64,000 nucleotides of DNA from the NCBI GenBank assembly GCA_007449985.2, contig VIIQ02000136.1:124001-188000 (forward strand). Reading direction: 5' to 3'. Below, piece after piece: positions 11,814-63,798 of this stretch. Numbering within the stretch: the first letter of the stretch is position 1; each line of letters starts with the position of its first letter. The translations under genes and the position numbers were made by a program. Source of the DNA: Desmodesmus armatus. Lineage: Eukaryota > Chlorophyta > Chlorophyceae > Sphaeropleales > Scenedesmaceae. The notes under the pieces are model-generated. The model saw nothing but the letters and a program-made list of their open reading frames with translations. It was not told the DNA's origin and did no database searches.

Positions 11814-13972
11814 ATGGCTCTGCAAGGTTGGCCCATCTCGCTGCAGCGTGCTGCAACCATCAGCTACACCCTAGTAGATGAGGTGAGAGAGAACCTGGCA
11901 GGCTGGCGGTCCCATAATCAGTTCAATTCCAACGTGATCCCTTGCAGTTGCTTTGTTGCAAATGTTTGTCAACTCCAACTAATGGAGCACTTGCAAGCTC
12001 AACATGTGCTATCTCAGATGGACCTGTGTGAGATGCAGCCGTGTGCTCAAAAGATCCCTCACGGCATCTTGCATTGGACAGCACCTTGCAGCACATAAAA
12101 ATTCCAATAGACTAAGGAAGGTGCTCAATGGGGTGCAGGTGGGGCCATGCGTGCAGGCTTGCACTCACTGCTCCACCGTTACCTTTCTGTATGTGCTCTC
12201 CCCTCCCCCCATGCATCACCCCCCTCCCCGAAACCCACCCATCCCTGTATCAGGTCCACACCCTCGTCGATGCGGATGCCCACACCCTCTCCCCTGCCGC
12301 ATACCCGGGGGCGCGTGGCCGCCTTGACCCCCTGCGCAAGAAGATTGCTGTGTGTGGGCTGATCCTGTTTGGTACCCTCATCAGCACGCTGGGCAAACTT
12401 GGTGGGTAGCAGACTGGGCGCGAGTCAGGCAGCAGATTCCTGGCTGCATGCAATCAGGCCCTCATCACGCGCTGCTCACACCACCAGGTGCCCGCACCAG
12501 AATTGTTACATGACCGGCCGTCCCCTCCCTTCATGTGACAGCAGCGAATCCAGAATGCAACAGCAGCGAACCCAGAATGTTACAGCTATGTTCTGCCGCC
12601 CTGTACTGCAACGGCAAGTTGCATTCGTAAACTAGAGTGCCAGTGTGGATGACTCTGAAAGCTACGAGCAGCATGGGCAGCAGCAGCAGCAGCAGCAGCA
12701 GCGGCAGGCATCAGCACCCAACAAGCATGTCTCGTGCAGAGCCGTGTTCCCTAGTGTGGCACTGAACAAGTATGCTTGCACTTTCAACACTCCAACTCTG
12801 CGTCTGATCGAGGGTGTATGCACATGTGTCTTATTGACCTGCAGCCTAGCAGCTCCTTCACTATCAGCACCCATCACTTGCAGCAGATTTTTTTGGGAAT
12901 ATGTTGCGTGCACTGCTGAACGTTTATCACTTATGTACATGTGCAGGTTCAAACTAGCCGTGACCTCACAGCACCATGGTTGAATGTGTGTGTGCTTTGC
13001 TGTCTGCTGCAGCCTACCAGCTCCAGGCTGTGGGTCGTGATGGCACGGTGCGACCCTTTGAGAAGCCCTGGTTCATGGTGCTGCTCATGTTTGCAGGTAG
13101 GGCTCGCGTCAGGTTTAGGGTTTAGGGTTTAGGGTTTGGGTGTGATGTTTAGGGTAACTCAACGATGTATGTTCAAGGTGCTGCTCATGTTTGCAGGTAG
13201 GGCCCAGTATCTGCAGGCATGCGTAATCGAGGGGTTCAGGATTATGGGTAGGGTGTGACGTTTCTGGGGTCAGGTCTACTCAGTGCAGCTGGTTCATGAT
13301 GCCTATCATATTTGCAGGTAGGGCTCTGTGTGTGGATTAGAGTACTGGATTTCGTCACTACTGCTGCTGCCGCCGTTGTGTTGCAGGCATGGGCATGAAC
13401 CTGCCGCTGTCTCTGTTCCTGGATTTGGTGCGGCTCAGCAGGCAGCGTGTGAAGGCACTGGTCGGGGGACGACGGCAGCGGCATCAGCCCCAGCAGCAGC
13501 AGCAGCAGCTGTACGTGCCATTGCTGCAGTACGACCAATACGATGATGAGGTGCGCCGTGCATTTACGGTTTATTCAGTGTGCGGATATGGGGTTGGGCA
13601 CTGCACAAGGCCAGGCTAGCTTTCTAAACAGTTCGCAAACCTTTTGGCTACCTTTTGAATTCCTGAGCAGAGTTGAGCCAACCTCTTCAACTGCTCAACT
13701 GGCTGCTGCTGCTGCTGGTGCAGGTGCCTGCTGCCCCTGCTGCTCCCTGGTCACCTGGCAGTGATGATGGTACTGACGAGGCCCCTGCCAGCCTGGCAGC
13801 GCAGTACTGGCACCACCATTTCAGGAGGCTGTTCCACAAGCAGGTGCTGCTGCTGCTGCTGCCTACACTGTGCGACTTGGTGGGGGCAGCACTGCTCAAC
13901 ATAGGTGAGGGGATACAGCATGCGACGGGCAAAGTGCTGCTGATGCGGTGGGGGTGGGGGTGGAGGTGGGGG

Positions 13973-14048
<76 letters not shown>

Positions 14049-17000
14049 TACCTTGTGCAACTTGGTGGGGGCAGCACTGCTCAACATTGGTGAGGGGACA
14101 CTTGCTTTGCTGCATGCGTTGGTGACGCAAACCCCCTGGTTTTGTTGATTGTCTTGACAGCAGTTGGTCAGGATCATCACCGAAAACCCCCTGTGCGACC
14201 TGTTTGGGGTAGCACTGCTTGATATAGGTGAAGGAGACACGGCATGCGAGAAGCAAAGTGCACTTATCCACTCTGGCAGTGGTGCTGGGCTTCTGCAGGA
14301 CAGTAGCAGTCACTACCAACAGCTGAACTCAGCACGGTGCACCAGGCACCCCGGCAGCCCCCCTTGTCAGCACTACATGCCTGCTGCACCTGTTCAAACA
14401 AACCACCAATAACACATGTAGTCCTGCCCTTGATTGTTTCATGCTTTTCTGATTGTCTCCCCTATTGCCCCCTTCCCTCCCCACCACCACCCGCAGGTCT
14501 CCTGTCAGTGACTGCCTCAGCCACCCAGATGATGCGGCAGTCCCTACTGCCCTTCACAGCCGTGCTGGGCTTTGCCTGCTGGCGCAAGCGGCTCAACGGC
14601 TACCATACAGCAGGCATTGCAGGTTGTGTGGTGAGTGACGTCACTCTTTACACACCTTACTTGAAGAGTCATGCTGACTGCTCAGCCTGAAGTTTAATTT
14701 TGCATGTAGGTAGCTGTTGTTGCAGGTTTGCTTCTGCACCGTTTAGTGCCCGACGTAATGTCATTGTTGGCTCTATGCAGCAGACATAAACGGTAGTAAA
14801 TGTAGGCTGTGTGGTGAATGCAGTCAGATTACACTTGTCCTTACTTATGGAGGCATGTGTCGACCCTTGTGTTGGACCCAAATCATTTATTTTGTGTTTT
14901 GAAAGGTGGGAGGGGGGGAGGTTGTTGGATACCTTCACAACTGGTGTTGTTATCTTCCGCTCTTGTTGCAGAAGTGGAGAGAGTAACACAAGGTTGAGGG
15001 TATCTCACAACTCACCTGCTCTCCCCCCTTCCAGAACCTGCCGAGGCCGGTTGTACTGTGTTGTATGATCGCTACTGTTCTGCATAGATCAAGGTGGTTG
15101 GTGCCACACTTTGATCTCCTTGCAATTGCGGCTATACATTGGAACTAAGCTGCAAATTTCTCAACCCTTTCTTGGAAAGGCTTGGACCCTGCAGTGCGGT
15201 GAGGTGGGGTGTGGCTAAAACCCCAAAACCTCAAACCTTACTCTGCCCTGTTTTTGCAGTTGGGGTTGGGCCTGGGTTCGGCCCCTTGCCTTGCCTCATG
15301 CTACACCCCCCCCCCCTTCCTCGATAGCACTGCTGCTGTCCATGCACTCCGCATGTCCGCTTGCATGGCTGCAGGTAGGTTTGGGCCTTGTTGCTGCCTC
15401 ATGCCTTGCCTCATGCTACCCCTTGCCCCCCCCCCCCCACACACACACTCACACACCACTCACAATGCTGCTGCTGCTGCCATACACTTTTTGTCTTGTC
15501 TGCTTGCGTTGATGCAGATTGGGTTGGGCCTTGTTGCCGCCTCCTGCCTTGCCTCAGGCTACAGTGGCAGCAGCAGCATCCCCACAGCCGCCGGCGGCGG
15601 CAGCAGCAGCGGCAGCAGCAGCAGCAGCAGCAGGGCCAGCATGGCTGTTGGCATTGCCCTCATCCTGCTGTCACAGCTGGTAGCTGCTGGGCAGCTGTGG
15701 ATAGATCAGAGCAGCTGGAATGCACAGCTGCAGCTGTCACCTCTAAAGATTGTGGGGTGTGAGGGACTGCTGGGCATGCTGCTGACGGTGAGTTTTGCAA
15801 GCGGTGGGTTTAGGTAGGGTCTTGGTGTGCAGAAATTTAGGGTTTGGGGTAGAGGGCTAGAGCAGCTGGAATGCTCGGCTGCAGCTGTCACCTCTAAAAA
15901 TTGTGGGGTGTGAGGGCCTGTTGGGCATGCTGCTGACGGTGAGCTTTGCAAGCAGTGGGTCTAGCCAGGGGTTAGCCAGAACCAACCTAAAACCCTTGCC
16001 CAGCTCTTGACTTGTGGCACTGTGTGTTCAGGCCTGGGCCTAGTGCTGACAGTATGTAGGCAGGAAAGTGCTGGTGCCTTTGTGGCCACATGGACGATCT
16101 AGAACTTCCAGGGGAACACACTTGGAAGTCACCACCTGCGCACATTCTCCAACAGTCCGGTTGGTGCTGTTGCCGCCGTGTACTGCTGCTGCCGCTGCAG
16201 ATGTTTGTGGTGCTGCCCCTTGCTGACATCAGCAGCCTAGGTGGGGAGGGCCGTGGCCTGTCTGAGGACACCTGGGACACACTGATCATGATTGCCAGCA
16301 GGCCACTGCTGCAGGTGAGGACAGTAAGGTGCAGTGCAGTGCAGTACAGTATGGTTGGCTATGCTACAGCCACTGGGGTCATAGTACCAGTAGCAGCTCA
16401 GCCTGAAACCCTGATAATGATTGCCAGCAGGCCACTGCTTGCAGGTGAGGATGATGCACTGGCAGTACAGTACTGTACTGTACAGTATGGTACTGTATGG
16501 TGTGGTACAGTACGGTGCGTGATGATACCGTACTGTGCAGGTAGTGGGGACATAATATCCAGCCTTGGCATAGGCCAGCAAGTCAGGAGCTCACGAGGTG
16601 ACTTGCCGAAGGAAGCACAAGTTGCTGTGTTGCCATTTTACCACAGCAACAGAACAGTCGCAACCGGACCCCGGGCGTGAACATGCCAGTGCAGTGCCTG
16701 CCCTGTCAAGAGCCTGCAATGTGCCTGCATCGATCCTCGAGAGTTTTGTATGCGTTCATCTGGGCGCCTGATGTCTGTGCGCTGCTGCAGGTGCTGCTGC
16801 TGGTGTACACGGCCTCCCTACAGGCCTACAATATATGCGGCATGGTCACATTTGGTGAGACACTGTAAACACTTCTTGCACACCTCTTGACCAGCGGTAT
16901 TTTCAGCGCCACCGCCAGCACTGTAATTGCGTTTGCCGTGTGCTACTGCTACATGTTGTGCTTTGTCACCATAAACACACCAACAGGGTCTTACAATGTA

Positions 17001-17359
17001 GCCAGCATGTTCACTACATCATGTGCCTCATTGCCCTGCCCTTGCATGCTGTGAGCTTGGTTTTCTTGCAAGATGGGCTGTGCTGTTGTGTGCTGTGTTA
17101 TGCTATGCCGCGCTGTGCCGCGCTGTGCTGTGTCGCAGGTGAGTTGAGTGCCGTGGACACCACACTGCTCCAAGCGGTGCGGACGCTGTTTGTGTGGGTG
17201 ATCAACCTAGTGGTGTATGCAGTAGCAGCAGCACTCACACCAGACAGAACAGACCAGCAGCAGCTGGACACACACTGGCTACAGCAGCCAGCATCAACGG
17301 CCGCACCAGCAGCAGCTGCAACTGTGCGTCAAGCTGAGCACCACCAGCAGCAGCAAAGT

Positions 17360-17414
<55 letters not shown>

Positions 17415-17589
17415 GAGCAAAGATGCGGACAACTGCATCAGCTCTAGCCATGCAAGGGTTAGCAGCAAGTGCTGCTGTTGAGCTGAAAGGCTCAGGCGCC
17501 ATGGAGGCAGCTCCTTTGCGGGCCAGTGGCTCCCTCCTGAGCACGGAGTATGCGGACCAGCAGCAGCTGTTGAAACCTGTGCCATCTGC

Positions 17590-17624
<35 letters not shown>

Positions 17625-18955: not shown

Positions 18956-19625
18956 GGGATGGTTTGGGTTTGGTGGAAATTGGGGGTGGTGTAGGTTGTG
19001 GGTGAATGGCTTTACAGCAGTTGTTGCAATGAGAAGATTCTGCCGTGTGCAGGAATGGGTTGGCGGAGCACATCCGCAGGGGTTCTGAGGGTTGAGTGTG
19101 CATGCAAATGACCAGCCTGCAGTGATGTGTTCCAGCCTGACTGTGACCTTTCTGTTTGCTTGCATGTCAGCCAGTGTGGACTGCAACTGACTTTGACCCT
19201 GACTGTTGTGGCCTCGTCTGAAGCCTAAGCCCCATGCTTTCTCTTGGGGGGAGGGACATTTGTTTTTTCGTGGCTGTGCAGGATTGCTGTGTGCAGGAGT
19301 GCATGTCGCTCAGGCTGCCGTGTGTGGCCTTCCTTGTGGTTTGTGGTTCAAAAATGCTGGGGACACCCCAGGAGACAATGTGCTAGGCAATTGATGTCCG
19401 CCACCAGGCTTGTTGAGGCTGCCCCGCTTGGCCAGTGCTGCTGCAGGCAGCAGGGTTTAGGGTTTAGACCCCAAGCCCTGGGGCCCCTTTGCACTGGATA
19501 TGTTTGAAGGTGTCTCAAAGGTCATTTTTGTAGTGCAATCCTACCTGGGGTCCACATGGACGCGTGTGCAGTTGTAGATAAGTGGGCTTTGACGAGACAA
19601 ACCACGTGGGTTCACCCAGCGTGTT

Positions 19626-19656: not shown

Positions 19657-20555
19657 GTGCTTTGCTGTGTGCTATTTGTGTGACGTGGGGCAGGTGAGCA
19701 CGTTGCTTGGCATAGCAGTGCACACAGGCTGTGCTGTCTTCTTCAAACGTTGCTGGGCCCAGGAAAGTTTTGCGCTTGATGTGGCAAATTCAGCGTTGGA
19801 TTTTGTGTGTCTGACTGCAGATAGCTGGAAGTGTTCGGTCTGCGGTTAGGCCCTAGGGAGTCCTGCACTGGCAGTGGTGTGACTTGGGCAGGTCCTTGCT
19901 GAAAGGGCTCAGGGTGCAAGTGTTGTGTCCAACAAAGGCCTTGCGTGATGGCAAAGAAACGTATGCTAGGGCACCTCGTTTGTCTTGGCTAGTGTCGCTT
20001 GCACTCATTCTTTGTTAGACAGCAGTACTGCACACTACAGTAAATCTCGAGAGGTCTGCATCCCAATGAGACCGCCACCGACCATCCTTACACGTTTTTT
20101 GAGTTGATATCTGCAACTTCATGCAATAAGTCCCCTCTTGCACCCGTTGTCCCTCACTGCCCCCCCTCCCCCCCGATTTCCGACGGCATTGGCGGACGCG
20201 AGCAAATTTGAGCAACAGAAAGTGATATTTGTGATCAAAGCCTCAATGATAGCCTTGTGGTGTTGATAACGTTGCTCAAAAGACCAGCAGGGATGCCCCG
20301 CGCTGAAGTACTGTACAGTATACTGTACTGTCCTTACGTAAGCACAATTTCCAAGTGTGGATGTCGTATGGAGAATCGCACCCGTGAAATATATTTGTCA
20401 GTTCTGAGACCCATTCTGAAATATTCACGCTGCAACAGTAATCTGTGACAGTGCTGTGCATCCAAAAGCACTTGTGCCAAGCCTAGGCCCAACTCAATCA
20501 GAAAAGACACACTCTACAAACCAAAAACGTTTTTCTATCCCTCTATCATTGTAAA
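18956..20555. other. Intergenic region between transporter and MYND genes
   Basis: No supported gene. It contains a telomere-like TTTAGGGTTTAG fragment near 19457, a (GT)n run passing into a long G run at about 19625-19660, copy C of the dispersed repeat at 19925-20070, and a GTACAGTATACTGTACTG palindromic tract near 20311. The sequence just before 20556 is AT-rich, consistent with a promoter or leader for the MYND gene. Confidence 0.5.
19925..20070. repeat. Dispersed repeat family, copy C
   Basis: Reverse-orientation match to 4264-4400: the TTGTTAGACAGCAGTACTGC block, then TAAATCTCGAGAGGTCTGCATCCCA, with a diverged GGGCACCT...CGCTTGCACTCATT segment before it. Only the part of the element that is missing from copy B is present. 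Confidence 0.65.
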
Positions 20556-25573: not shown

Positions 25574-27665
25574 GACAACCTCAAGGCAGCAGATCACCTG
25601 CTGCTTGCCACAGTGTGACCAACACTGTGGCTGTAGGGAGTTGAGCAGCTGATGGGTGTCAGATGCAGTTCCCCATACCTGGCTGATGCAATGCTCTGGG
25701 TTCATGTATGCTTTCTGTGACACTGATGCCCCATAAGCCGTTATTTGAGGTAGCAAAAGTGTACCAGTTGCGACAAGTGCTGTGTTACACAATTAGGCCA
25801 ACCTGGCGCAACAGATATGCTCCTCAGGCCTGAGGTGCTGTGTCTCACATCAGGATCTGCCATGGAACTCCTGTTCTTGGGGCTATTTGGAATCATGTGT
25901 TGGTGGCAGTGAGTGCTTGTTAGCCTGACAAGTCAGCCTGTCAATGGTTGACCTTGGCATGACTCAAGCCACTGACTGGTGATCAGTACTGTCAATGCAT
26001 CGACTGTGCAATCACCTGAGCGCCGCAAGGTGCGGTTGGCAGCCTGCTATTGTGTCCAGTGTTGCTAAGGTGTCATTGTGGCAGCAGCATGTAGGCTGCC
26101 TGCTCCATTACCTAGCCTGATCTTGATCAGCAAATCATTGTGGCAGCAGCATGTAGGCTGGCACAAAGGGAACTGCGCTGCAGTGTACCTTGTGCACTTA
26201 CATGCTGCTGGCAATCAACAAGTCACCACTGGTTCATGGTGAACTGGACACATGGCCCATGTGGTACCAGTAATAAAACAAGCGACACTGTCAATGCATC
26301 ATGCACGTGCATGATGCATTGGGCCCACGCATAATTCAGGACCATTAGGCGCTGCGCGGGCTGCATCACAAGTGACACTATGCATGTCAACAAATGTACA
26401 GAGCTGTACTTGCATCACCCGGTGGCAAGAGTCCTGCTCTGACTGCTACTTGAATGGCACTGCCACCTGGATACTCAAAGCATCAACGTGATGCTCAGTC
26501 GACCTGACAACTTGCTGAACAAATGGTTTGGAACACATGGCCCACCGGGTGCACTGCATCAGGTTGATCACTCTGGTGCATGATGAGCAACTCAGAAAGT
26601 TAGGGGAGTTAGGGGAGTTAGCTGCACAGAACACACAGGAGGTGCACCTGTGAGGGCCAGGGGTCCCCCAGGCTTCGCCGTGGGTTGTATGTAAGGTTGT
26701 ATGTGGCACTGTCATTGACTGGTGGGCTTGGCAGCAAGCTGTTCACTGTGAACCTGGGCTGCGAGTCAACACGTGGGTAAGGATACGTAGAGGGCTCAAT
26801 CCTGTGTGCATAGACAGCAGCAGTGTCACCAGCCAGAATACAAGCCTATAGACCCTTCTATTGTGCTACGATCACCTATAGGAGCAACAACAGCGGGGGG
26901 GGGGGGGTGCAAACACTACCAGCGATTGCGCCGCATGCCTTGCTGTGTGGGCAGTTGCCACTGGTTGAGACAGTAGTGGGTGGAGCCTGCGTCCAAAAAA
27001 AGGCGGGAAATAACCCTTGCGACATGCCAATGCTAACTCCCTGCGCATGCCTTGCCACTAACTGCCACAAACTCCCAACTTCCCTGGTTTAGGCGGGTTT
27101 CCCTTGAAATTTAACTCCCAACTCCCACCGATATCTGCCCTTTTTTGGAAATATTTGGAAGTTAGTGGGAGTTAGTATACCAATAGCCTTGCGAGATTGA
27201 TTACACTTTATCTGTCATTTTATATTCACTAACTCCCACCATTTACCCCTCTGCCCCAAGGGTTGGGACAGGGAGTTAGGGGAGTCAGCGCCCCCTTGGT
27301 TGGACAACCCACAGATTTCGCAAGGTTTGAGGGGTTGGCCTGAGTCGTGCAAAGTGTGCACAATTGCTGGCCTTCATGCATGGCCGAGCTGACCATCAGT
27401 GTTTTTTGGCAAGCAGCATCGCTGAGCAGGGTGTGCTCACACTGTTACTCACAGCCGAAGTGGAGTGACAGCCTGGCAACTTCAAGCATATGCAATGGAC
27501 TGTTATAGCGTCCTGGATTGTGGCTCGATTTTTGTGTCACCACAAGCCTGTCCCAAGCAGTCCATCACCCTCCAACTCATCAGCCTCATGCCTCAGCAGC
27601 AGAGCAATCACTGACACTAGGCCAGCACTCTGCCCAGTGGGCTCACAATAAACAAGATCAGTACC
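25574..27665. other. Intergenic region with dispersed repeat copy B
   Basis: No supported coding gene. It includes copy B of the dispersed repeat (26135-26516), short GTTAGGGGA tandem units at about 26598-26620, an 11-base G run near 26896, and an inverted pair of ACTCCCA/TGGGAGTTAGT motifs at about 27108-27240 that could be a small hairpin or an old mobile-element end. A TTTTGGAAAT-type AT-rich patch lies at about 27145. Confidence 0.5.
26135..26516. repeat. Dispersed repeat family, copy B
   Basis: Reverse-complement match to 3909-4265, with shared blocks TGGTTCATGGTGAACTGGAC, ATGGCCCATGTGGTACCAGT and GCATAATTCAGGACCATTAG. A local palindrome, GCATCATGCACGTGCATGATGC, sits in the middle and is absent from copy A. 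Confidence 0.75.
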
Positions 27666-29543
27666 ATGTCGACACTGCCTGTGGCACTGCGTGTCAAACG
27701 TCGTCGGGACTGTGCTGAATCCATTCCTGGCGAGATCATTCTCGAGACCAGCAGCAGACCACAGGATGCTCTTGCAGCAAGCCTCCAACACACACTGGCT
27801 GTCAGTCAGAGCTCAGCAGGCACCTCAGCCGCTCCAGAGGGCCCTGAGAGAAAGCGGTGTCGGTTTGTGCTGGTGCCTGGCCATGCTGCTGCTGCTGAGG
27901 CTGCAGACGTTTCCACCGAAGCAGCTGAGGCAGGCAAGCAGCAGGGTCTGGCCGATGGACCAGTCCTGGAGTTGTGGCACACTTCGGGGCTGTCTGCATC
28001 AGCCTCAAGCGCCGCGAACCGCCGTCCGGACCCTGTCAGCGGACAGCTGCAGGAGGATGCTGCTCATGCCGGTGGCGTCTATGCAGCCATGGTGCAGCAG
28101 TACCTTTCAGAGCAGCAGCACCAGCAGCATCCCGCAGCAGCAGAGCCCACACAGCACCGCACATACCAGCGGCCAACCACTAGGCGCCACCAGCACGGCA
28201 GCAGCACAACTCAGGCTGGCCAGCAGCCCAGTCCAGCACACCAGCAGCACCTGCCAGCATACATGACGAAGGGCATGCTCAAGCAGTATGGTCTATGGCC
28301 AGCCAAGCAGCAGGCGCCTCAGCACGGCCTCAGCCAGCAGCAGCAAGTGGGTCCTGCAGCGACAACAGGCCGTGCTGGAGCAGTAGACACCCGGGTCCCT
28401 CCCGTGGCCACGCATGCTGCTGATGCCGATGAGGACGTCAGCATGGATGAAGAGTACACTTACGATGTCTATGTTGCAGCGGAGCCTGGCAGCAGCACTG
28501 CAGGACAGCCGCATGCCAGCACAAGCCCCAGCAGCAGCCAGCAGGGCGATGGTGCTGACTTAGGAGCTGCAGGAGAGCTGCCTGTCATCCAGGTAGGTCG
28601 CTGCTGTGCTGTTGTGCCACTCCTCTGGTGTAGCAGCAGCAGCACCATGACAGTTGGAGTCTTGGCTGTCCTATCCTGTCCCATGACTGGATAGGAATTT
28701 GCTTGCAGCACTGGAACAACGGCAGCAGGGTGTTAGATGGGTAGGCTGCAGTATGTTTGACAGCAGGCGCCCTCTCCGCAAGAGCTGCAGGTGCTTTGCT
28801 GAATACATCACAGTGCCAACATGCCCTTGCTCAGCCTGGTAGCTGCACGCGCACTCATGTGTCTGATAATGACTGCATCACAATGCACCTGTCTGCTGTC
28901 GGTCGGGGCTGCTGCTTGCCTGCATGCAAGTGTGGGAGGATGAGCTCTTGCAGCTGCATGGAAATGCAAGCAGCAACCCCATATACACCACACCGTATCT
29001 GGTCGCTTTCATATTCACACCAGCTTGCCTGCTGTCTACCGCATGCTGCTTGCATGCTCGTAGGTGTGGGAGGACGAGCTCTTGCAGCTGCATGAGGACT
29101 GGACCCTAGGCCTGCAGGATTCCTCAACAGGGGTGGACAGCGAAGACAGCAACGCAGAGGACTACTTTGCAAACGACTACCCAGATGAGGACGATCACAG
29201 CCTGCACGGCAGCAGCACGGAGGGGGAGGAGGCAGGAGATGACGAGGGAACAGGGCGAGCCTCTGCATTCGGCACAGCTGCTGGCAGCATTTACGGGTGC
29301 TATGAGAAGGGCGTGCGGCGGGGGCGCGCGGCGGGGGCGGAAGCAGCGGGTGGGTATGATTCAGACGGGTCGTTTGCGTTGGAGGAGTATGAGAGCAGCG
29401 GGGAGGAGCAGGAGGGGGAGCGGGAGGACGTGGGGCCTGCCTGGCTGCGGAAGCACTGTGCGGGGTATGGTGGCGGTGACGGGGGTGGGCAGGCTTGGAG
29501 GTCTGTGCTGGCGCAGCAGTTTGCACCTGGGCCGCCACGATGA
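27666..29543 (+). CDS. IWR1: IWR1 / SLC7A6OS, RNA polymerase II nuclear import factor
   Basis: Two exons: 27666-28592 (donor CCAG|GTAGGT) and 29064-29543 (acceptor GCTCGTAG|G), phase 0, giving 468 residues. The N-terminus MSTLPVALRVKRRR matches the LRVKRKR opening of IWR1/SLC7A6OS proteins. A YTYDVYVA segment precedes the exon junction, and exon 2 holds the family signature DSEDSNAEDYFANDYPDEDD, followed by an acidic tail. In yeast and animals IWR1 binds RNA polymerase II between its two large subunits and uses an N-terminal nuclear localisation signal to carry the assembled enzyme into the nucleus. The algal protein is longer than usual because of Gln/His/Ala-rich filler in exon 1. A decoy copy of the exon 2 start lies in the intron at about 28911-28970. 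A TGTAA motif lies 50 bp after the stop. Confidence 0.9.
28905..29095 (+). repeat. Copied start of IWR1 exon 2 inside its upstream intron
   Basis: The true exon 2 start GTGTGGGAGGACGAGCTCTT (29064 on) is preceded by a copy at 28938-28970, GTGTGGGAGGATGAGCTCTT, with matching intron sequence CTGCTTGCCTGCATGC before both. In the copy the acceptor TAG|G has become AAG|T, so it is probably inactive. Spacing is about 125 bp. Confidence 0.85.
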
Positions 29544-49874: not shown

Positions 49875-52357
49875 ATGAGGAGGCGCCCTGGTATTGCTGG
49901 CCTGCAGCGAGATGTTCAAGCCAGGGTAAGTGCAGGAAAGACGTATCAACAGCAGCACTCCTCTGCACCTTGTTGGTGGGGGTCCCAACAGGGTGGCAGT
50001 TGCAAACCACCGCCTGCATGACTTGTCAACAGCAGGGCTTTGACAGCCCCATGGGACATGTGCTGTTGCTGCTTCCAAAAGGCCATAATTGTTCCCAGCA
50101 ATGACCTTGGACCGCGTCCATCCAGCATCTGGACACTGCTTCTGCTGCTGCTGACAGGAGTGTCAGACTACCGTTGTGCCCAGCAGTGTCACGCAACAGC
50201 AGTGTTCACGCGATGAACTACAGTGCAAGCATCACCCATCATGAATGCATGGATCTGGAACGTGTGGACCTTGCAACGTGTGGACCTTGCACCACACACA
50301 GAAAAACCCTGGTCACAGTCCAACGCACTTCACATTGTAGCCCCACCCCCCTCAACTTACCCTTTCTGGCCCCGCCCACCCCGTCACTCGGCTCATGTAA
50401 TACAGGAACAATTCAAGTCAGCAGGTGAAGAGGTCAGGCGAGCAGCCCTACAGCAGATGAAAGACCAGCTCCTCACATTCAAGAGCAAACTGGAGGAGTT
50501 TGCCCTCAGCACAAGTCAGACATCCGCGTGACCCGGTCTTCAGGGCGCAATTCCACACCATGTGCGCAAACATAGGGGTGGACCCCCTCGCATCAAACAA
50601 GGTGGGTGTGCATTGTGTCTGTAATTGTGTTTTTTGGGGGGGGGGGGCGTATTTGCCTGGTTGCCTGCGGCTATTGCTGCAGCTGCCTGGATCTGTAAGG
50701 CATATGCCAACTGCAACTGACACTGATACTGCTCTATCGTGCCATGCTGTGCGTCTGCTGGATTGTGATGATGTGTCATGCTGTCTGGTGCTGCTGTGTT
50801 GTGGTGTCATGCTGTGCTGTTGTTGTGTTGTGCTGTGCTGTGCTGTGCTGTGGTGTGGTATGTCTCCTGCTGTCAGGGCATGTGGAATGAGCTGCTTGGC
50901 TTTGGTGACTTCTACTACGAGCTGGGGGTGCAGCTGCTGGAGGCATGCCTGGCAAGCAGGTGGGTGTGGGTGGGTGTCAAACACATGAGTTGCATAGAGC
51001 CTGTACATACAGGATCATGATGGCGGTGATGATGGTGACAGGATATTGCCAACAAGTGTGTTTCAACACGCATGCAGAGGTAAAAAGGTTTATCATAATG
51101 GGAATGTTCACCTGATACTTGTCTGATGTCGGTGCACCTCCGTGTGTGTGTGGTGGGGGGGGGGGGGGCAGTGTGCCGTGGCAAGTACGGCAACGGCGGT
51201 GGTGTCAGCTGCTGCTGCTGCTGGAGGCATGTTTTGTCATGCCGCCTCTGTGCGGTCATTTCCTCTACTCTGGGTCCTTTTTTGACCAGGGGGGGCGTAA
51301 TCCCACCGGCTGGCCACACACAGCGCAATCAGGCGAACCCAAGTGCCGGGGGCCCAAGGCAAAGCTATTGGATCTAAGAGGATCCTACGGAAGTACTCTT
51401 CAGCCAGGTTGAACTGCCCAATTTGAAGGCGAAGCTTGGCATGACCTTATTCCGGCTGCGCACTAGGCCCACAGCCTTTGCCTGTTGCTCAGCACCCGGC
51501 GCGCGCCCTTCTACTCTGGTTGCGAATTGTCGTTTGCTGCGCTCCCATGGCGGGTGCACTTGTCTGGCTGCGCACTCTGCCCGCACCCTTGTCTGATGCT
51601 GCGCACTCGGCGCGCACACCTTGTGCTGCGCACTCCGCCCGCACCCTTTGTGTTGCTCGTTCCCTTGGCGGGCGCACTTTTTTTTTGGCTGTGCACTCCG
51701 CCCGCACCCTCTGTCTGTTGCTGCGCACTCGGCGCGCACAGCTTGTTGTGGCTGCGCGCCCGTAGTGCGCGCTTTTGTTTTGGCTGCGCACTGATTCATG
51801 CACAATTCTAGGCTACGCATTTTGTGTGTTCACCTACCCTGCAAACTACTGCGCTGTACCTCCGCAGTGCACTGTACTGACTTCACTGAGCGGCCATGCA
51901 AGGTGCAGGACGGGCATGGACTGTACTGCACTGTACTGTATAGCCTGCACTGTACGGTCATGCACTGCTGCACTCAAAGGCGTCGAATAATGCAGGGGTC
52001 CTGTACTGTACTGTACTGTGCTGCTTCAGGCCGTTGAATGGTGGCATGTTTGAGCTGGGTGCGCTGCGTGCTGCTGTGATGAGGCGGAGGGGCAGCAGGT
52101 CCGACCCTGTCAGCGAGGATGACATAATACGAGCCATCAAGAAACTCAAGGTGAAAGAAGACGGGGGGGGGGGTAGCAGGGAGAGGGGGGGGGTGCTGGG
52201 TGCGGGGGGGGGGGGGTAAAGGGAGGGGCAGAAGGAGGGTGCAGGGCAGCAGTTCTGACCGTGTGAGCAAGGATGACATAATACGAGCCACTAAGAAACT
52301 CAAGGGGACAGGGATTTGGGGGGGGGGGCAGAGACTTTTGTGGGGTGTGCGGTTGTG

Positions 52358-52402
<45 letters not shown>

Positions 52403-54306
52403 GGGGGGGGTTGGGGGGGGGGGAGCGGGGCCAGAAGTAGGGGCAGGCAGCCAGGAGAAGGGAGGGGCAGGAGAAAGGAGGGAAGAGGGTGGGGGGGCAG
52501 AGGGAGGGACCGGGGGAGGGGCGGAGGAAGGGGGCTGGGCAGCAGGTTCGACCATGTGAGCGAGGATGACATAATACGAGCCATCAAGAAACTCAAGGTG
52601 AGAAACTCAACTCGGGAGGGGAAGGGGAGGCCAGGGGCAGAGGGGAATTCTTCTCACAGAGGGTTGGGGGGACAGAGAACGTATGACCATGTGCCGAGGA
52701 TGACGTGATATGGGCGGTCACAACTCTAGGGACTCTGAGCAGTTACGCCTGCTGCTGCTGCTGCCGCTGCTGCTGCTATATCTGGTCAGGTGTCGTATTA
52801 ATGTGATTGTAATCCGTTCCCGCACCGCACATGCTCAAGTATTGTGTGCTGCGCCTGCCTGCTGCTGCTATTGTATCTCGTCAGGTGTTGGGTGGTGGTC
52901 TTGACGTGGTTGCAACAGGTAGCCTTACCTCATCTGCTCAATGTCGTGCTGCTGCTGCTACTGCCGCCTGCTGCTGCTGGGGGGTGTTCAGGTTTTGGGT
53001 GGTGGTATCGACGTGGTTGTGATAGGTTCCCGCACCTACATCCGCTCGGTGCCTGGTGAATTCAACATGGACAAGAATAGGGTCATGGAGCTGGCTGAAC
53101 AACAGGGATGCATCAGCACAGGTGTGTGTTGTGGGGGGGGTCTTTTTTTTTGCATCTTGGGTGTCTGCTCTGGTGTGAGGAGCTAGCTGTAAGGAGGGGG
53201 TGTGGTTCCGCTGGCTAATGCGAGCTGTGGCGCTCGTGCGCGGCGGGGGGGGGGGGTCGCAAGAGGGCGGGGGAGCCGACATGGGCAGGGGGCTATGTGG
53301 TGGGTGTGATGTAAGTTCAACACGGGAAAAAACCCATTTTCTTAGTTATCCTGCAGCGTTCGGCTGCACTACCGCAGCAAAAAAAGTTGTGATACCACAA
53401 AACAAAAGAAAAGATTAATGAATTAACAAAAAGAATGGGGTCATGGAGCTGGCTGGGCAACAGGGATGCAGCAGCGCAGGTGAGCAGGGTATCAGCACAA
53501 GCACAGGCAAGGGGGAAGGGTTGCACAGGGTCGGCGCGGGCTTCAGCGGGGGGGGGGGGGGGGGGGGGGGAGGGGAGGGGGCAGGATTGCACCAGCAGTA
53601 ATGTGTGTGTCGACAGAGAGACTGCATGCGTGTGTGTGTGTGTGGGGGGGGTCCTCCAAGGCGTCTTGGCCCCCTGAGCGTTGGGACAACGTGATGGGCG
53701 TGATGCTGAGGGAGGGCCTGGCACCTCCACCCCCCTTCATGCACCATGTCTCTTGCCTACCCCACTCCTACTGCCCCCCTGCTCTCATGTCGCACCACAT
53801 GCCACAACCCAAAGCCCCTTAACCCTCACCCTCACCCCCCTGGCCCCTGCAGGCGAGCTGTCCACCAAGGCGTCTTGGCCCAAGGAGCATTGTGACAAAG
53901 TCATAAGGGAGATGCTGAGGGAGGGCCTGACACTCCCACCCCCACTCCTGCACCATGTCCCCTGCCTACCCCCCTGCTGCCCCCCCCCCCCCTGCTCGTC
54001 CACCACATGCCACGACTCTCAAAGCTCCTCGACCCTCCGCACACACAATTTAACACACATGTGTGCGCCATAACCCCCCCCCCCCCCCCCCCCTCCCTCC
54101 CCCCCCCCCCCCCCGCACCCCGCTTTGCAGGCGAGCTGTCCACCAGGGCGTCTTGGCCCAAGGAGCGTTGTGACAAGGTGTTAGGGGAGATGCTGAGGGA
54201 GGGCCTGGCCATGATTGATGATGGGGCACCTGGTGGGGTGCGGCTCTACTGGTTCCCTGCACTCAGCAACCAACAGCAGCAGCAAACAGCAGCAGGCAAC
54301 AGCTAA
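49875..54306 (+). CDS. VPS22: ESCRT-II subunit VPS22 (SNF8)
   Basis: Six exons: 49875-49925, 50406-50601, 50877-50959, 52030-52150, 52992-53121, 54131-54306. Family landmarks appear in order: [11 protein letters not shown] at the N-terminus, a helical hairpin ([25 protein letters not shown]), [77 protein letters not shown], and [20 protein letters not shown] with LREGLAMID before a Trp-Phe-Pro end. VPS22 has two winged-helix domains and joins VPS25 and VPS36 in the ESCRT-II complex, which sorts ubiquitinated membrane proteins into multivesicular endosomes. A one-base frame discontinuity sits in exon 2 at about 50510-50530 (STSQ to HPRDPVF). Introns 4 and 5 are packed with copies of exon edges, including an intact alternative last-exon acceptor at 53852. 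Confidence 0.93.
51470..51790. repeat. GC-rich minisatellite in VPS22 intron 3
   Basis: Units of about 25-60 bp built on CTGCGCACTC(C/G)GC(C/G)CGCAC recur at least eight times, with CCCTTGGCGGGCGCACTTTT variants interspersed. The open frames on both strands (Cys/Arg-rich) come from the repeat. Confidence 0.8.
52079..52730 (+). repeat. Four copies of the VPS22 exon 4 end
   Basis: The true exon 4 end GAGGATGACATAATACGAGC...CTCAAG|GTGAAAG (to 52150) recurs near 52236-52304 (donor mutated to GGGGAC), near 52535-52606 (donor CTCAAG|GTGAGAA intact) and as a decayed remnant at 52681-52730 (GAGGATGACGTGATATGGGC). The spacers are G-rich with runs of 8-10 G and a long (GT)n tract at about 52362-52400. 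Confidence 0.9.
52775..53490 (+). repeat. Copies of both edges of VPS22 exon 5
   Basis: The true exon 5 start CAG|GTTTTGGGTGGTGGTATCGACGTGGTTG (52992) has copies at 52883 (CAG|GTGTTGGGTGGTGGTCTTGACG) and, more decayed, at about 52788 (CAGGTGTCGTATTAATGTGATTG). Its end, GGGTCATGGAGCTGGCTG...CAG|GTG (to 53121), recurs at about 53436-53483 with donor GCGCAG|GTGAGC. The copies therefore flank the true exon on both sides. Confidence 0.88.
53634..54215 (+). repeat. Three copies of the VPS22 last-exon start
   Basis: The true last exon opens TTTGCAG|GCGAGCTGTCCACCAGGGCG at 54131. Copies occur at 53852-53960 (CCCTGCAG|GCGAGCTGTCCACCAAGGCG, acceptor intact, in the same phase) and at about 53655-53735 (acceptor lost). 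If used, the 53852 copy would encode [16 protein letters not shown] and end at a stop near 54073, truncating the second winged helix. Confidence 0.88.
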
Positions 54307-54599: not shown

Positions 54600-55500
54600 G
54601 CAGCAAGTACCTCCCTGTGCCTTTGGACGGAACCGCGGGGCAGCACTGCTGCTACAGCTGCAGCAACGCTGGCAGTCGCTGTCCCATTTGTTGGGTGGGG
54701 TCAGCACACCTCCCACCCTGCGGTACCCCAGCGGCAGCAGCAGCAGCGGCAGCAGCAGCAGCAGCAGCTGCAGCAGCCGCGCCATGTTGTCAGAGAGGCT
54801 TGTTCTCATACAGCAGCATCAGCAGTCGCTCCAGATGCCAAGAGAAAGGCAGGCCGCAGCCGTTGGCTGCTAAGGGGCATCTACCTATCCACCACTGCTG
54901 CCGCCAGCAGCAGCAGCAGCAGCAGCACCCACAACTATTCACTCAGCGGCGGCAGCTGTGGCTGGGTGGCTGCTCGTGCAGCATACAGTCAATCCGGGGC
55001 GCCGCGCCATGTTGCAGCAGCGGCTGGTTTCATACAGCAGCAGCAGCAGCAGCAGTCACTCCAGATGCCAAGAGAAAGGCAGACCGCAGCCGTTGGTTGC
55101 TGTGGGGCATCTACCTATCCACCACCGCTGCCGTCAGCAGCAGCAGCACCCACAACTATTCACACAGCGGCAGCAGCTGTGGCTGGGTCGCTGCTCATAC
55201 AGCATACAGTCAATCCGGGGCGCCGCGCCATGTTGCAACAGCGGCTGGTTCCCGTACAGCAGCAGCAGCAGCCACTTCAGATGTCAAGAGAGAGGCAGAC
55301 AGCAGCCGGTGGCTGCTGTGGGGCATCTACCGCACCACGACCCCTGCCAGCAGCAGCGGCAGCAGCAGCAGCAGCCACAACCATCACACAGCTGCAGGTA
55401 CAGGTGCAGCTAGTGGTTGGGTTGCTGCTCATACAGCATATAGTCCACTCCAGGGCGCCGCGCCATGTTGCAGCAGCGGCCTGTTGCCCTGCTCACCAAC
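54600..55500. repeat. Four tandem copies of a roughly 228-bp unit
   Basis: The segment CGCCGCGCCATGTTG recurs at about 54777, 55003, 55224 and 55460. Between copies lie (CAG)n, CAGATG(C/T)CAAGAGA(A/G)AGGCAG, GTTG(C/G)CTGC, GGGGCATCTACC and CTGTGGCTGGGT blocks. Because each unit is (CAG)-rich and has few stops, a 622-codon plus-strand frame runs through it and the next array, but it has repeat composition and no motif. Confidence 0.85.
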
Positions 55501-58243: not shown

Positions 58244-61200
58244 TCACTCCGCTTTGCTGTCACACCACATTGCCAGCCGCCCCTGCTGTCTGTGTGAGTT
58301 CACAAGGGTGGCAGTAGCCCCTGCCCACTGGCCACACGCAAGCCATAAAACCATGAATACCCCAGGCTTGCCCGCCTGTTCCTTAACCCTATTGACATTA
58401 TTAGTATACTCGTTCTCCAACAGAGTGACCTTCAGGCTTCCCCCCTTCACAAGAACCTTCCCACGGTAGCTGTGGTAGTTGTCTTCAGGCCCAAAGCCAT
58501 ACTTGTAGGAATCGTATTCTGGGTCCTCCCTGCCGGTGTAGTACTCGGAATCCTCTCCAGAATAATAATCTGAACCCTCCTCACCGGAGTATCCACGAGA
58601 CCCGCTAGAGCGCCTTTTCATAGGCCCCTCGCCGTTGTAATAGCCGTCAGGCCCCTCGCTGTGGGAGTAGCTGTCAGGGCGTTCGCCGTGGTAGAACCCA
58701 AGATCATCGAACCCAGCATCATAGTTTGCAGCAGCAGTATCGGCGGGAACCTCGTGCTTCCTGGCCCTGACACGTCCCAGCCTGCCACCGACGATGCTCA
58801 GGCGCCGTGAGCCCGTGTCGGCAAAGTAAGGGATGAACTCGACGCGGCCCTTGGCTTCCTTCACGCCTTCTGTTGTCACCACGCTGTTGATCTTGCCGCG
58901 GAAGATGACTGCCGTGACGTTGACGATGGCGGAGATGTTTGGCTCGGCGCGATCGTAAGGATCGTCGTATGAGGCCGACGCGAGGCGACGGCGACCCTTG
59001 ATTGTGTCGTCGGGAGGGTATGTAGCCTCGCAGCTATCGACCTGTGAGAGGATGGCGAATCCCTTGGCGGTGAAGTAGGCACTTCCCTTGAAGGGGCATC
59101 CACACTCCCCAGCGGCATGGGTGAAAGTGCTGCGGGAGCAGCAGCAGCAGCGGCAGCAGCAGCAGCACGCATGACAGCAGATGGTGATGCGCGATGTTTT
59201 CCGCACTCGCCCCCGCAGTGCATATCAATTCAAAATGCACCATTAGGAAAGCTAGAAGGCAGGTAGGTTGGCTGCTGCCCCCCTTGGTGTGCACACATTC
59301 TAGGGTACTGCAATCTTGTCTTCGCTGGTCAACCTGTGCGATTGCTTGGATATCTCCGTTCACCACAGACAGTATACACACACTACAATGACAGTATAGA
59401 AACAGCGCACGGCCCACCAACACAGTGAAGACCGTCTGCGCCTTCTGATGCAGAGATGCAATGCCCGTCCCGTGGCAATCCCGAGCAATTGGGAATACAG
59501 CCTGCACCACAAACCTGTGCCCCTGCAAGCCTTATCCCCCATGCATGGCTACACACCTCCTTGCCTACCCGCGGGCTTCTCCCTCCCCCCTCCTGTCCAC
59601 ACCCACCCAGGGTGATCCAACTTGATTATGGGGGGGGGGGGTGGCGGTTGTTACAAGTGGATACTTTCACCGCTGGGCGGTACTCTCCACAGGTGGTTTT
59701 TGGAATATGGCGGGTGGTGCTGGTGGACCGTTGCCCCTTGTTTTGCACACATGAAGCTGGGGCGGGGTGTGTTCCCACCATCTCAGTGAATATGCGCGCG
59801 CGCGGGGGGAGGGGGTCTCACCAGCGCAGGCGTACTCACCACTTGATTGACGCAGGTATGCACGTCTCAGCCGGGGCAAAGCTAGTGGTGTCCCCTCCCC
59901 CCTCGTTGGTATGCGGGGAGGGTTGATTGACGCAGGTACACACGTCTCAGCGGGGGCAAAGCGGGCGGGGGGGGGGGGGGAGGGGGGGAAACCCGCCAAC
60001 ACACACATTCATATGCGGGGAGGGGGGTGCCCACCAGCGCAGGCGGACTCACCAGTTGATTGACGCAGGTATGCACGTACCAGCCGGGGCAAAGCTGGCG
60101 GGGGGGGGGGGCGCCCGGGTGGCATGCGGGGGGGGGGGGGGGGGGGTATGCGGGAAGGAAGGTTGTGAGGAGGGTGCCCCCCCCCCCTCGTCTGTATGTG
60201 GGGAGGGGGGTGTCCCACCAGCGCAGGCTGTGCTGTGTTGTCCTGCAGGCGGACTCACCAGTTGATTGATGCAGGTATGCACGTACCAGCCGGGGCAGAG
60301 CTAGGGCAGCCCCCCCCCCCCCCACACACACATTGATATGTGGGGAGGGGGTCCCCACCAGCGCAAGCGGACTCACAAGTTGATTGATGAAGGTATGCAT
60401 GTCCCAGCCGAGGCAGAGCTGGCGGGTCTCCCCCGCCCCCCCTTGGTCTGTGGAAAGGGGTCCCCACCAGCGCAGGCGGACTCACCAGTTGATTGACGCA
60501 GGTATGCACGTACCAGCCGGTCAAAGCTGGCGGGGGGGGGGGGGGGGCGCCCGGGTGGTATGCGGGGGGGGGGGGGGTATGCGGGGAGGAAGGTTGTGAG
60601 GAGGGTGCCCCCCCCTCGTCTGTATGTGGGGAGGGGGGTGTCCCACCAGCGCAGGCTGTGCTGTGTTGTCCTGCAGGCGGACTCACCAGTTGATTGATGC
60701 AGGTATGCACGTACCAGCCGGGGCAGAGCTAGGGCAGCCCCCCCCCCCCCCCACACACACACATTGATAAGTGGGGAGGGGGTCCCCACCAGCGCAAGCG
60801 GACTCACAAGTTGATTGATGAAGGTATGCATGTCCCAGCCGAGGCAGAGCTGGCGGGTCTCCCCCCGCCCCCCCTTGGTCTGTGGAAAGGGGTCCCCACC
60901 AGCGCAGGCGGACTCACCAGTTGATTGATGCAGGTATGCACGTCTCAGCCGGGTCAAAGCTGGCGGGGGGGGGGGGGATGCGGGGAGGGGGGTTGTGAGG
61001 AGGGTGCCCCCCCCCCCCCCCCCGTAGGTATGCAGGGAGGGGGGCCCCACCAGCGCGGGCGGACTCACCAGTTGATTGATGCAGGTATGCACGTCCCAGC
61101 GGGGGCAGAGCTAGTGGTGTCCTCCCCCCCTAGTTGGTATGCGGGGAGGCTTGATTGACGCAGGTACACATGTCTCAGCGGGGGCAAAGCTGGCGGGGGG

Positions 61201-63798
61201 GAGGGGGGACACCCCCCCCCCCCAAACACACACACATTGACATGTTGGGAGGGGGGGTCCCCACCAGCGCAGGCGGACTCACCAGTTAATTGTCGCAGGT
61301 ATGCACGTCCCAGCCTGGGCAGAGCTGGGGCAGGCCCCCTGTGTCCCAACTTCAAACCAGGTGCACTGCGCTGCAGCCTTCCTTTCCAGGTGGTCTGAGA
61401 AGAACTTGTTGCGATGGCCTTCGTACCTTCACAGCACACACACGTTATAACATAACATCAAGCAAAAATTAATAAATAATCTATTCAATAATATCAATAT
61501 AATAATTAATTTATAATAATATAAGATATATAAATCAATATATATATATAATAAATAATCAATTCAAATCATAGTTACACCTGTAGCTATGAGGCTCAAG
61601 AGCTCATGCCAGCCATTCACTGATATTACGGAGAGGGCAGAACAAACCAGAAAGAACAAACACTGTGGCTCAGACCAGCGCAAGTACAGTCCCCTTCAAT
61701 GAAGGAGAGGCGGAGACAGTCTACAGGTGTACGCAGCTGCCGCTGCTTCGAGAACCAAAGCACCCAGTTTGTCCTTGATGACATGGAGCGTCATGACATG
61801 AAACGACATGACAGGACGACAGCAGGGAGGGAACACATGCACATGCACATGCACATGGATCATCCAAGTTGCGTGCGGGGGTGCGTGCCAGCCTCAATGT
61901 GGCATCATGAGTCATGCCAAGCCAACAGCAAACCAGTCACTGCTTCACGGTGGACTGCTTACCTGCTCTCAGGGTAGCTTGGGTTCAGGCAGAAGTCGGG
62001 CTCATCCTCCGGCAGGGCACACCTGAAGGTGGACCTGCATGTGGTAACAGCACAGCATGACAGCACAAATGACGTCAGCACAGCACAGCGTAGCACAGCA
62101 CAGCATGAAAGCACAAATGACGCCAGCACAGCACAGCACAGGGTGACAAGAAGGCAGGACATGGCAGCGCGCTTCTCACAGCACAATAGAGAAAGAGAAC
62201 ACACAGCTTCAGTAGCAACCAACACACAACAACCGCCGTTGCCGCTGCTGCCCAACCTGACACACCTTCACGACCAGGCCACAGGCTCGTAAGTAACCAT
62301 CCGTGCATGCAGGGGGCCAGGCCCCTTGTCTACCCTGCTTACAGTGAAACGCCAGCAGCATTGGTTGACTCGGTTCCTGTCATCTGCATAGTGAAGGTCT
62401 TCACGTCCAGCTTGTTGTGGTGCTCCTCTTTGTGGTAGTAGCCACCGGGGCCTCCATCTCCCCCCTCATAGTGTTCCTCCTTGTGGTAGTAGCCTGGGCC
62501 CTCACCACGACCCTCATAGCTCTCGTGTTCACTGGGGGGGATTGGCATGGTGGGAGCAAGGGAGTGGATCAGGGATATGCGGTAAGGAGGAGGGGGAGGT
62601 GCTGACTGGGGTGGGGGATAAGTAGGTTTCAGGGGGAAGGGATGGAGTGCTGACAGCAGCAGAGGCAGGGGTGAGGTGAAAAGGTGCTCAGCAGGCTGGT
62701 GTATGCATGTGTGAGGGAGAAGTGGTGGTGACCACCGGGGCCACCATCACTGCCCTTATAGAGCTCCGGGAGATCCTCCCTGTGGTAGTAGCCTGGGCCT
62801 TCACCACGCCGCTCATAGCTCTCGTGCTCACTTGGGGGGGGGGGGGGTACGTAGGTGTGAGGGAGAAGGGGAAACAGAGGCAGGGGTGTGCTACATCAGT
62901 GATGGGTTGCTCAGGAGGCTGGTGTGTGTAGGTGTGAGGGAGAGGTTGTGGTGACCACCGGGGCCGCCATCCCTGCCCCTGTACAGCTTCGGAGAATCCT
63001 CCCTGTGGTAGTAGCCTGGGCCTTCACCACGCCGCTCATAGCTCTCGTGCTCACTGGGGGGGGGGGTACGTAGGTGTGAGGGAGAAGGGGAAACAGAGGC
63101 AGGGGTTTGCTACATCAGTGAAGGGGTGCTCAGGAGGCTGGCATGTGTATGTGTGAGGGAGGAGTGGTGGTGACCACCGGGGCCGCCATCTCTGCCCTCA
63201 TAGAGCTCCGGACGATCCTCCCTGTGGTGGTAGTGACCAGGGCCGTCACCATGCCCCTCATAGCTCTCATGCTCACTGGGGGGGGGGGGGGTGACATGCC
63301 AATGTGCATGTGGGAGGAATGGGGCAGAGCAGGAACATGCGGTAAGGGGGCAGGGGAGGTGCTCACGGCGGAGGGGGGTAGGGAGGTGTGAGGGGGAAGG
63401 GATGGAATGCTGACGACAGCACAGGCAGGGGTGTGGAGATAGCGTGCTCAGGGGGCTGGTGTGCACATGTGTGAGGGGCAGGAGGCTTGCTATGCAATGA
63501 TGAGTGTATGCGTCGCCATGGTTTAGGGTTTAGGGTTTAGGGCCCTAAACTTCAAAAACCCTAAACCCTCAACTGGCTGCCATCTTGGCAGTGGCAGTAT
63601 GGCCCACTCCTTCACCACACTGCATGGGAGGACAAGCAGCAACTGCAAGGTTGGAGGGCGGCAGCAGCCCTGCATGGCTTGAGAAAGACACCACCCAATT
63701 TGCAGTTTCATTGAAGTAATTAGTGCTGGTACATGCATCGTTGGTGTACCAGCAGGCTGTGTCAAAGGCTTGAGGCATGCCTGATGCTGTGCTGTCGA
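58244..63798 (-). CDS. Secreted cysteine-rich protein with Tyr/Gly/His-rich repeats (partial)
   Basis: Minus-strand exons joined by phase: a candidate exon from 63798 (FDTACWYTNDAC...YFNETANW); 62531-62343 (EHESYEGRGEGPGYYHKEE...KLDVKTFTMQM); 62034-61963 (FRCALPEDEPDFCLNPSYPES); 61426-61283 (HRNKFFSDHLERKAAAQCTW, GACPSSAQAGTCIPATIN); 59129-58244 (CTFTHAAGECGCPFKGSAYF onward, stop at 58244). The last four joins all fit phase 2. The protein has many cysteines, possible N-glycosylation sites (NET, NCT, NIS, NVT), then a Tyr/Gly/Ser/Glu-rich stretch (FYHGERPDSYSHSEGPDGYY, DYYSGEDSEYYTG) before a final RGKVLVKGGSLKVTL strand-like segment. I infer an extracellular or cell-wall protein; I do not recognise the family. 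The 5' end probably lies beyond the window. Introns contain two of the largest exon-edge arrays here. Confidence 0.6.
59836..61325 (-). repeat. Array of 12 exon ends with donors in one intron
   Basis: The true exon end at 61283 reads (minus strand) GGGACGTGCATACCTGCGAC...CTG|GTGAGTCC. Eleven further copies of this roughly 45-60 bp segment follow at about 61150, 61069, 60911, 60800, 60680, 60479, 60371, 60252, 60047, 59923 and 59836. Most keep CTG|GTGAGTCCGCC or TTG|TGAGTCC and are preceded by CCAG, so several look like complete small cassette exons of about 42 bp. The triplet at 60252/60371/60479 repeats as 60680/60800/60911, a nested duplication of about 430 bp. Runs of C (minus strand) up to 18 bases separate the units. 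Confidence 0.92.
61448..61575. other. AT-rich island of about 125 bp
   Basis: Inside an intron of the secreted-protein gene (61427-61962) the sequence changes abruptly to almost pure A/T: AATAAATAAT, AATATCAATATAATAATTAA, ATATAAGATATATAAATC and (TA)n. The flanks are ordinary GC-rich nuclear sequence. It is followed by GTTACACCTGTAGCTATGA, a short sequence also found at about 57352 and 57120. Confidence 0.9.
62430..63285 (-). repeat. Four copies of acceptor plus exon start, secreted-protein gene
   Basis: Minus-strand segments opening C(n)AG|TGA(A/G)CACGAGAGCTATGAG begin at 62531 (the exon used in the model), 62830, 63053 and 63275. Spacing is 299, 223 and 222 bp. Each encodes EHESYE-(G/R)-x-G-(E/D)-G-P-G-x-Y then a charged stretch and DGGPGG. 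All are preceded by C runs acting as pyrimidine tracts. They may be true repeated exons or decoys: the 62531 copy is symmetric (phase 2-2), so adding or skipping units of that kind would keep the frame. Confidence 0.85.
63521..63570. repeat. Head-to-head interstitial telomere-type repeats
   Basis: GTTTAGGGTTTAGGGTTTAG GG meets CCCTAAAC directly, and after a short AT-rich spacer (TTCAAAAA) comes CCCTAAACCCT. The result is a short inverted pair of TTTAGGG arrays around a GGGCCC centre. Confidence 0.85.

Follow-up and report, generated by a model that had tools for sequence, protein, structure and literature searches.

Why should the introns of a green alga hold copies of the edges of their own exons? 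The question is raised by a 64,000-nucleotide stretch of the Desmodesmus armatus genome (the window; contig C132, bases 124001-188000; the assembly has 115.8 Mb, 831 contigs and 57.8% G+C), in which an initial annotation had described introns built from serial copies of exon-intron junctions. We confirm that such junction copies are real and that they are present beyond the window, duplicated junctions being observed on 13 contigs. The account that we consider fairly probable is that the copies are remnants of frequent local duplications in the same orientation, mostly of tandem units of ~100-300 bp spanning an exon-intron boundary, where they would be tolerated.

The clearest gene in the window is VPS22/SNF8 (49875-54306, + strand). 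Its six exons (49875-49925, 50406-50601, 50877-50959, 52030-52150, 52992-53121 and 54131-54306, with GT and AG sites read from the sequence) give EAP30 matches in Pfam and, when joined, align almost end to end with human SNF8 (2zme_A, E=6.6e-66), so that the true exon edges are known. Copies are found at four of its junctions, all on the + strand. The terminal part of exon 4 and its donor (true copy at 52082-52154, placed by self-comparison and the SNF8 alignment) recur within the intron at 52244-52311 (86.8% over 68 bp), where the donor GT has become GG, and at 52529-52601 (91.8% over 73 bp), where the donor GTGAGA is intact and outscores the true one (7.9 vs 5.7); a further, decayed copy was read by eye near 52680. 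The acceptor and start of exon 5 (52988-53047) are copied at 52881-52939 (80% over 60 bp), with a second upstream copy read by eye near 52784, and the end and donor of the same exon (53057-53124) are copied at 53419-53482 (85.3% over 68 bp). Exon 6 has an outer intronic copy of its start at 53652-53722 (84.5% over 71 bp to 54139-54209), in which the acceptor was not seen, and an inner copy of its acceptor and start at 53848-53929 (92.7% over 82 bp to 54126-54207), in which TGCAG is intact. Three other observations concern this gene. Relative to human SNF8, exon 2 shifts frame twice within a few codons (50490-50540), which may reflect either assembly base errors or a real oddity; intron 3 holds an array of units of about 58-63 bp (51451-51757) that was not matched to an exon edge; and three CAG-rich units of about 221-230 bp (54776-55488) lie about 0.5 kb downstream of the stop codon.

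To place these copies among all repeats of the window, its sequence was compared with itself after masking of simple repeats. Direct repeat pairs far outnumber inverted pairs, both in the window at any distance (107 vs 8) and among local pairs within 1 kb in a wider sample made up of the window and 200 kb from other contigs, taken as ten 20-kb blocks (244 vs 6). Of the 24 local direct-repeat clusters in the window, 13 sit on recognisable splice junctions, six being assigned by script and seven by eye; six clusters overlap the edge of an ab initio exon, the splice site inside the copied stretch was read by eye at 13068, 13863, 15255, 15708, 28910, 37460 and 62432, and no junction was assigned to the remaining 11. 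The description of repeats straddling splice junctions therefore holds in the window, as it does in the chaperonin and ab initio samples considered below, and the statement that donors and acceptors are both copied is borne out by the VPS22 exon 4 donor and by the acceptors of VPS22 exon 6 and of the arrays at 37460-38268 and 62432-63277. The names given to the host genes fared less evenly. VPS22 is supported by the SNF8 alignment and IWR1 by an Iwr1 match in Pfam (E=1.9e-7), whereas SLC35F6-like, B3, SANBR-like and secreted protein are labels of the initial annotation alone; eight other exon pieces of the window were scanned and gave no Pfam match.

The frequency of junction copies was determined in two sets of exons. 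The first consists of chaperonin genes, which were picked by homology and blind to repeats: a search with the Cpn60/TCP-1 family yielded 56 exon matches, 30 loci were merged into 14 segments (59.8 kb), and exon edges were set manually, guided by match ends and splice scores. The second is an ab initio set of 139 exons predicted in the wider sample by a scorer of splice sites plus coding content, which was trained on the chaperonin exons and four VPS22 donors and recovers 35 of its 41 own training exons. This scorer replaced hidden-Markov and chained gene finders, which gave nonsense models when self-trained on the wider sample. The counts rest on the first version of the scorer, because retraining lowered recovery to 32 of 41; the window pieces scanned against Pfam were drawn from the retrained list. 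Kinesin and proteasome families were also located in the genome and contribute no junctions. In the chaperonin sample an exon-edge copy is present in the adjacent intron at 9 of 90 junctions (3 donors, 6 acceptors). In the ab initio sample, which includes the window and leaves out exons that are more than one quarter simple repeat, copies occur at 35 of 278 junctions at a score of 44 (21 donors, 14 acceptors) and at 38 at a score of 40. Controls were empty in both sets: chaperonin exon ends matched introns of other genes in 0 of 795 comparisons and gave no inverted match, and in the ab initio set 0 of 1973 exon ends matched introns of other blocks at equal score and 0 of 278 matched in inverted orientation, which excludes chance matching. 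About 10-13% of the junctions examined thus carry copies, the ab initio rate being somewhat inflated because some predicted exons are themselves copies. The distribution is patchy: 15 of the 35 ab initio copies cluster in a single 20-kb block (L020_L021), and two other blocks hold none or one cluster. Local duplications in general are also unevenly spread, covering 35% of the C10 block (L006, L007) and none of the C5 block (L004, L005).

The structure of the copies was analysed over 357 junctions, with a score of at least 48 and at least 10 bp of exon required and three junctions too near a block end left out. This set contains 35 events (18 donors, 17 acceptors) whose exon part spans 30-102 bp and which mostly lie 100-300 bp from the true edge. 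Their aligned identity ranges from 74 to 100%, in agreement with the range from near-identical to decayed that had been described. For 21 of 30 events, the sequence past the copy shows homology to the spacer that separates the copy from the true edge, the arrangement expected of a whole tandem unit, although in multi-copy arrays this homology may be helped by further copies; in the other nine the spacer has no recognisable homology, and some of these events are old. The tandem arrangement is plain in one chaperonin gene (C601), which contains an array of four 124-bp units that are 91-94% alike, and in another (C75) with an array of 106-bp units; near-perfect units also occur at position 4226 of block L020_L021 and position 12318 of block L014_L015. 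Most units cross an existing junction and combine an exon part with an intron part; most copies look like tandem duplications across the junction. Two introns of block L020_L021 are close in length to the repeat distance (234 bp with a distance of 247, and 260 bp with 242), and by eye their 5' ends show no resemblance to the next exon. In the same block, the spacer of a young donor copy contains a foldback (L020 5816-6041), for which a genome search adds its own inverted arm and the copy alone.

Do the duplications seek out junctions, or do they merely survive there? The initial annotation had left both possibilities standing. The 110 introns that lie between known or predicted exons hold 36 clusters, and 26 of these overlap an exon by at least 20 bp, compared with 11.2 expected on present intron lengths; present introns, however, contain the extra copies. 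Gaps of more than 1300 bp between neighbouring exons, and three to four clusters with an undefined null, were omitted from these placement tests. When all extra copies were removed and units were placed at random in a manner that preserves the coding sequence, 22 of 32 clusters lie at junctions compared with 17.1 expected (P=0.03), and for the youngest clusters (at least 94% identity) the figures are 7 of 9 and 5.0 (P=0.12). Pure targeting had at one stage seemed attractive, with 29 of 87 clusters at junctions against 11.1 expected and, in a further count, 20 of 26 where the null predicted a share of 0.34, and was rejected when much of the excess vanished on subtraction of the extra copies; in the chaperonin set, the comparison of 8 of 11 with a null share of 0.28 set an observed cut of 15 bp against a null cut of 25 bp. 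We favour tolerance as the main cause of placement at junctions, with anchoring as a minority reading.

Several observations weigh against tolerated tandem duplication as the whole explanation. When each cluster's own copies alone are removed, 23 of 33 clusters lie at junctions as compared to 14.6 expected (P=0.0008), because of which a targeting effect retains some plausibility. Unequal detection does not readily account for the excess, as simulated detection is nearly equal for both kinds of cluster up to 10% change per copy; the bias becomes large at 20%. Of the 278 ab initio junctions, 6 (at a score of 44) to 8 also have an exon-edge copy in the opposite flank, mostly at predicted exons that are themselves part of an array. 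At their closest pair, 64 of 87 clusters are gapped rather than contiguous. The exon parts are not uniform in length, ranging only from 30 to 102 bp across 32 scored events where the median exon is 157 bp (Kolmogorov-Smirnov P=2e-4, events with an exon part below 25 bp or an exon below 90 bp being omitted); the array at 62432, read by eye, reaches about 110 bp and falls outside this scored range. Finally, four of the ten copies with an exon identity of at least 95% have no homologous spacer and end just beyond the splice site, by 3, 3, 3 and 8 bp (C30 933, C171 2305, block L020_L021 13838 and block L002_L003 1920), which plain tandem duplication does not predict.

The junction excess, the confined exon parts and the young copies with sharp ends and unrelated spacers are what would be expected if the boundary itself anchored the copying, with a junction (through a stalled replication fork, an R-loop or repair templated by a splicing intermediate) starting or stopping a process that carries 50-100 bp of exon edge into the intron. 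We regard such anchored copying as possible but doubtful, since the excess is slight once all extra copies are removed, since some copies end before reaching the donor (see below), and since gene conversion, indels in the C- or G-rich flanks of splice sites, or selection against long exon copies could mimic the edges; such selection is an alternative reading of the confined exon-part length. Copying that is sharp at the splice site was also considered as a general rule and rejected: most units reach into the intron, and at least four copies end 5, 28, 30 and 46 bp before the donor (block L020_L021 4573, 14663 and 15807; block L014_L015 7349). These same copies, which lie outside the window, also overturn, at the scale of the genome, the claim that exon interiors are never copied on their own. 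That junctions are hot spots of local copying, repeatedly writing a 50-100 bp exon edge that ends at the splice site into the intron, is thus put forward only tentatively; if it were true, introns would be continually rebuilt from their own exon edges.

The fate of the copies bears on whether they serve as exons. Between true and copied exon parts, 160 of 2143 aligned sites differ, distributed 40/34/86 over the three codon positions. The third-position share of 54% does not differ from one half (P=0.38) and is unlike one third (P=1e-7), a pattern that fits, as expected, a pair made up of one probably constrained exon and one probably neutral copy. For the aligned intron parts the figure is 85 of 797 sites, about 1.4x the exon rate and near the neutral expectation, with unalignable parts excluded. 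Of 28 gaps, 25 have a length not divisible by three (over whole alignments, so that some gaps are in the intron part). To judge from these substitutions and gaps, the copies appear to behave as non-coding debris. Their splice signals are nevertheless often retained, as the proposal of decoy splice sites had implied: GT or AG is kept within 3 bases of the expected place in 31 of 35 copies, and although copies score lower on average than true sites (4.6 vs 6.4, P=0.014), 14 of 31 equal or exceed the true site, the copy being credited with the best of seven positions, which favours it. Such retention is what alternative (for instance mutually exclusive) or duplicated exons kept for function would also display, yet this explanation is improbable, as most gaps break the frame, the codon-position pattern fits a single constrained copy, the copies are mostly partial exons, and none of 87 clusters spans a whole predicted exon.

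Two further explanations concern the origin of the copied sequence. Insertion of a mobile intron (introner element) or a transposon could supply the spacers that, in 9 of 30 events, lack homology to the intron around them. Introners, however, form dispersed, near-identical families, whereas the copies here are local and, where read by eye, are made of exon edge and intron from the host gene itself. In addition, a 301-bp query made up of a copy and its unique spacer matched its own locus alone in the 115.8 Mb genome (by a search that skips very common words), and the region of VPS22 exon 4 gave only weak matches elsewhere (75-89% over 35-88 bp), most of them involving the G-rich stretch of its intron. 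Mobile insertion is accordingly very unlikely, in keeping with the original view that the repeats bear no transposon signature. An assembly artefact is more remote still. The two close frame changes in VPS22 exon 2 indicate that base errors may exist, but the copies are present on 13 contigs and differ at up to a quarter of sites; mis-assembly cannot explain copies whose divergence has the pattern expected of coding constraint on one of the pair.

In the account that we consider most probable, tolerated duplication across the junction, the sequence of events would be as follows. Replication slippage or template switching would duplicate an exon edge together with a stretch of intron. Selection would mostly remove duplications that fall inside an exon or swallow one, while those that cross a junction or lie within an intron would persist; junction duplications would be tolerated because the original outer junction stays usable. 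The spliceosome would choose this outer junction, plausibly by exon definition, so the inner exon copy would turn into intron and the intron would gain one unit. The inner copy would then decay neutrally as coding constraint holds the outer one, and deletions would trim introns, at times shortening the copies. Because introns before duplication would have been only a few hundred bases long, a random unit of 100-300 bp would meet an exon edge about half the time. The intron lengthening that had been proposed is substantial: extra copies, counting junction and intron-only clusters together, total 9,356 of 55,416 bp (17% of the intron sequence examined) and occur in 31 of 110 introns.

The other junction copies of the window fall in several genes. 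On the + strand, in the gene labelled SLC35F6-like, three copies of an exon end with the donor GCAG|GTAGGG lie at 13068-13326 (86.8-97%), and three copies of another exon end and donor (ACATAG|GTGAGG in the first) lie at 13863-14261 (80-91%). These are followed on the + strand by three copies of an acceptor TGCAG with exon start (15255-15563, 82-85%), two copies of an exon end with the donor CTGACG|GTGAG (15708-15970, 91% over 112 bp), and, as a junction cluster located by script, one intronic copy of the end and donor of the exon at 16201-16314 (16276-16477, 80.8%). The acceptor and exon start of IWR1 (exon from 29064, + strand, with the Iwr1 match) have one upstream copy (the pair spans 28910-29094, 88% over 51 bp). 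On the - strand, self-comparison and reading by eye reveal five copies of an acceptor plus exon start (CACAG|CGGCTGATGG or close) at 37460-38268, in which the true exon is likely the last copy (37460-37572); the exon at 43436-43585 has one upstream copy of its acceptor and start (the pair spans 43542-43775, 90% over 73 bp); and four copies of an acceptor plus exon start (CCCCAG|TGAGCACGAG or close), with an exon part of about 100-110 bp, lie at 62432-63277 and likely comprise one coding and three intronic copies.

Other repeats in the window stand apart from these. A complex array at 59802-61333, built of units of about 110 bp and about 431 bp and containing long runs of G and of C, is tied to no known exon. 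Two adjacent stretches at 3910-4428 match 26150-26514 and 19908-20065 in inverted orientation (80-83%) and could represent a dispersed element. Of six plant-type telomere-like stretches present in 264 kb, five fall in the window (7873, 13111, 19451, 57277 and 63519); such repeats were considered as a sign that repair had acted at the copies and rejected, as two of the six sites lie in cluster spans, which cover 19%. A long gene with repeats presumably of the OPR type and a FAST_1 match below the cut-off suggests, independently of the annotation, a green alga as the source; the gene has 16 relatives in a protein search. A scan of the window for RNA families gave no match.

How do these duplications relate to known systems? 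Passages of one article describe tandem duplication as an accepted route of intron gain and list intron transposition among the proposed mechanisms (PMC3443670), and another reports a single tandem duplication across an intron-exon boundary in one potato gene (PMC4974935), so that the kind of event is already known. As in tandem-duplication intron gain, a direct duplication within a gene reuses existing splice signals, and the potato case shares the crossing of a boundary. The textbook model differs in that an AGGT-bearing exon segment is duplicated to yield a new intron, which is also the outcome in potato, whereas here existing introns are lengthened and the inner junction becomes a decoy. 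The likeness to introner elements and intron transposition is that introns gain sequence with splice sites. In relatives of Chlamydomonas, satellite DNA similarly adds tandem repeats to genome size, introns are long, and the driver of intron length is called unknown in passages of PMC8226300, which describe no exon-edge copies. What is new here is the scale of junction duplication, about one in ten of the junctions examined; no report of genome-wide exon-edge copying was found in the literature searched, most subscription journals lying outside its coverage.

Junction-crossing duplication is thus a likely, visible source of intron lengthening in this alga. Decoys that equal the true site in score lie mostly 100-300 bp from it, for example in VPS22 and the chaperonin genes, and so test naturally how a splice site is chosen; were the sampled rate to apply genome-wide, such tests would number in the thousands.

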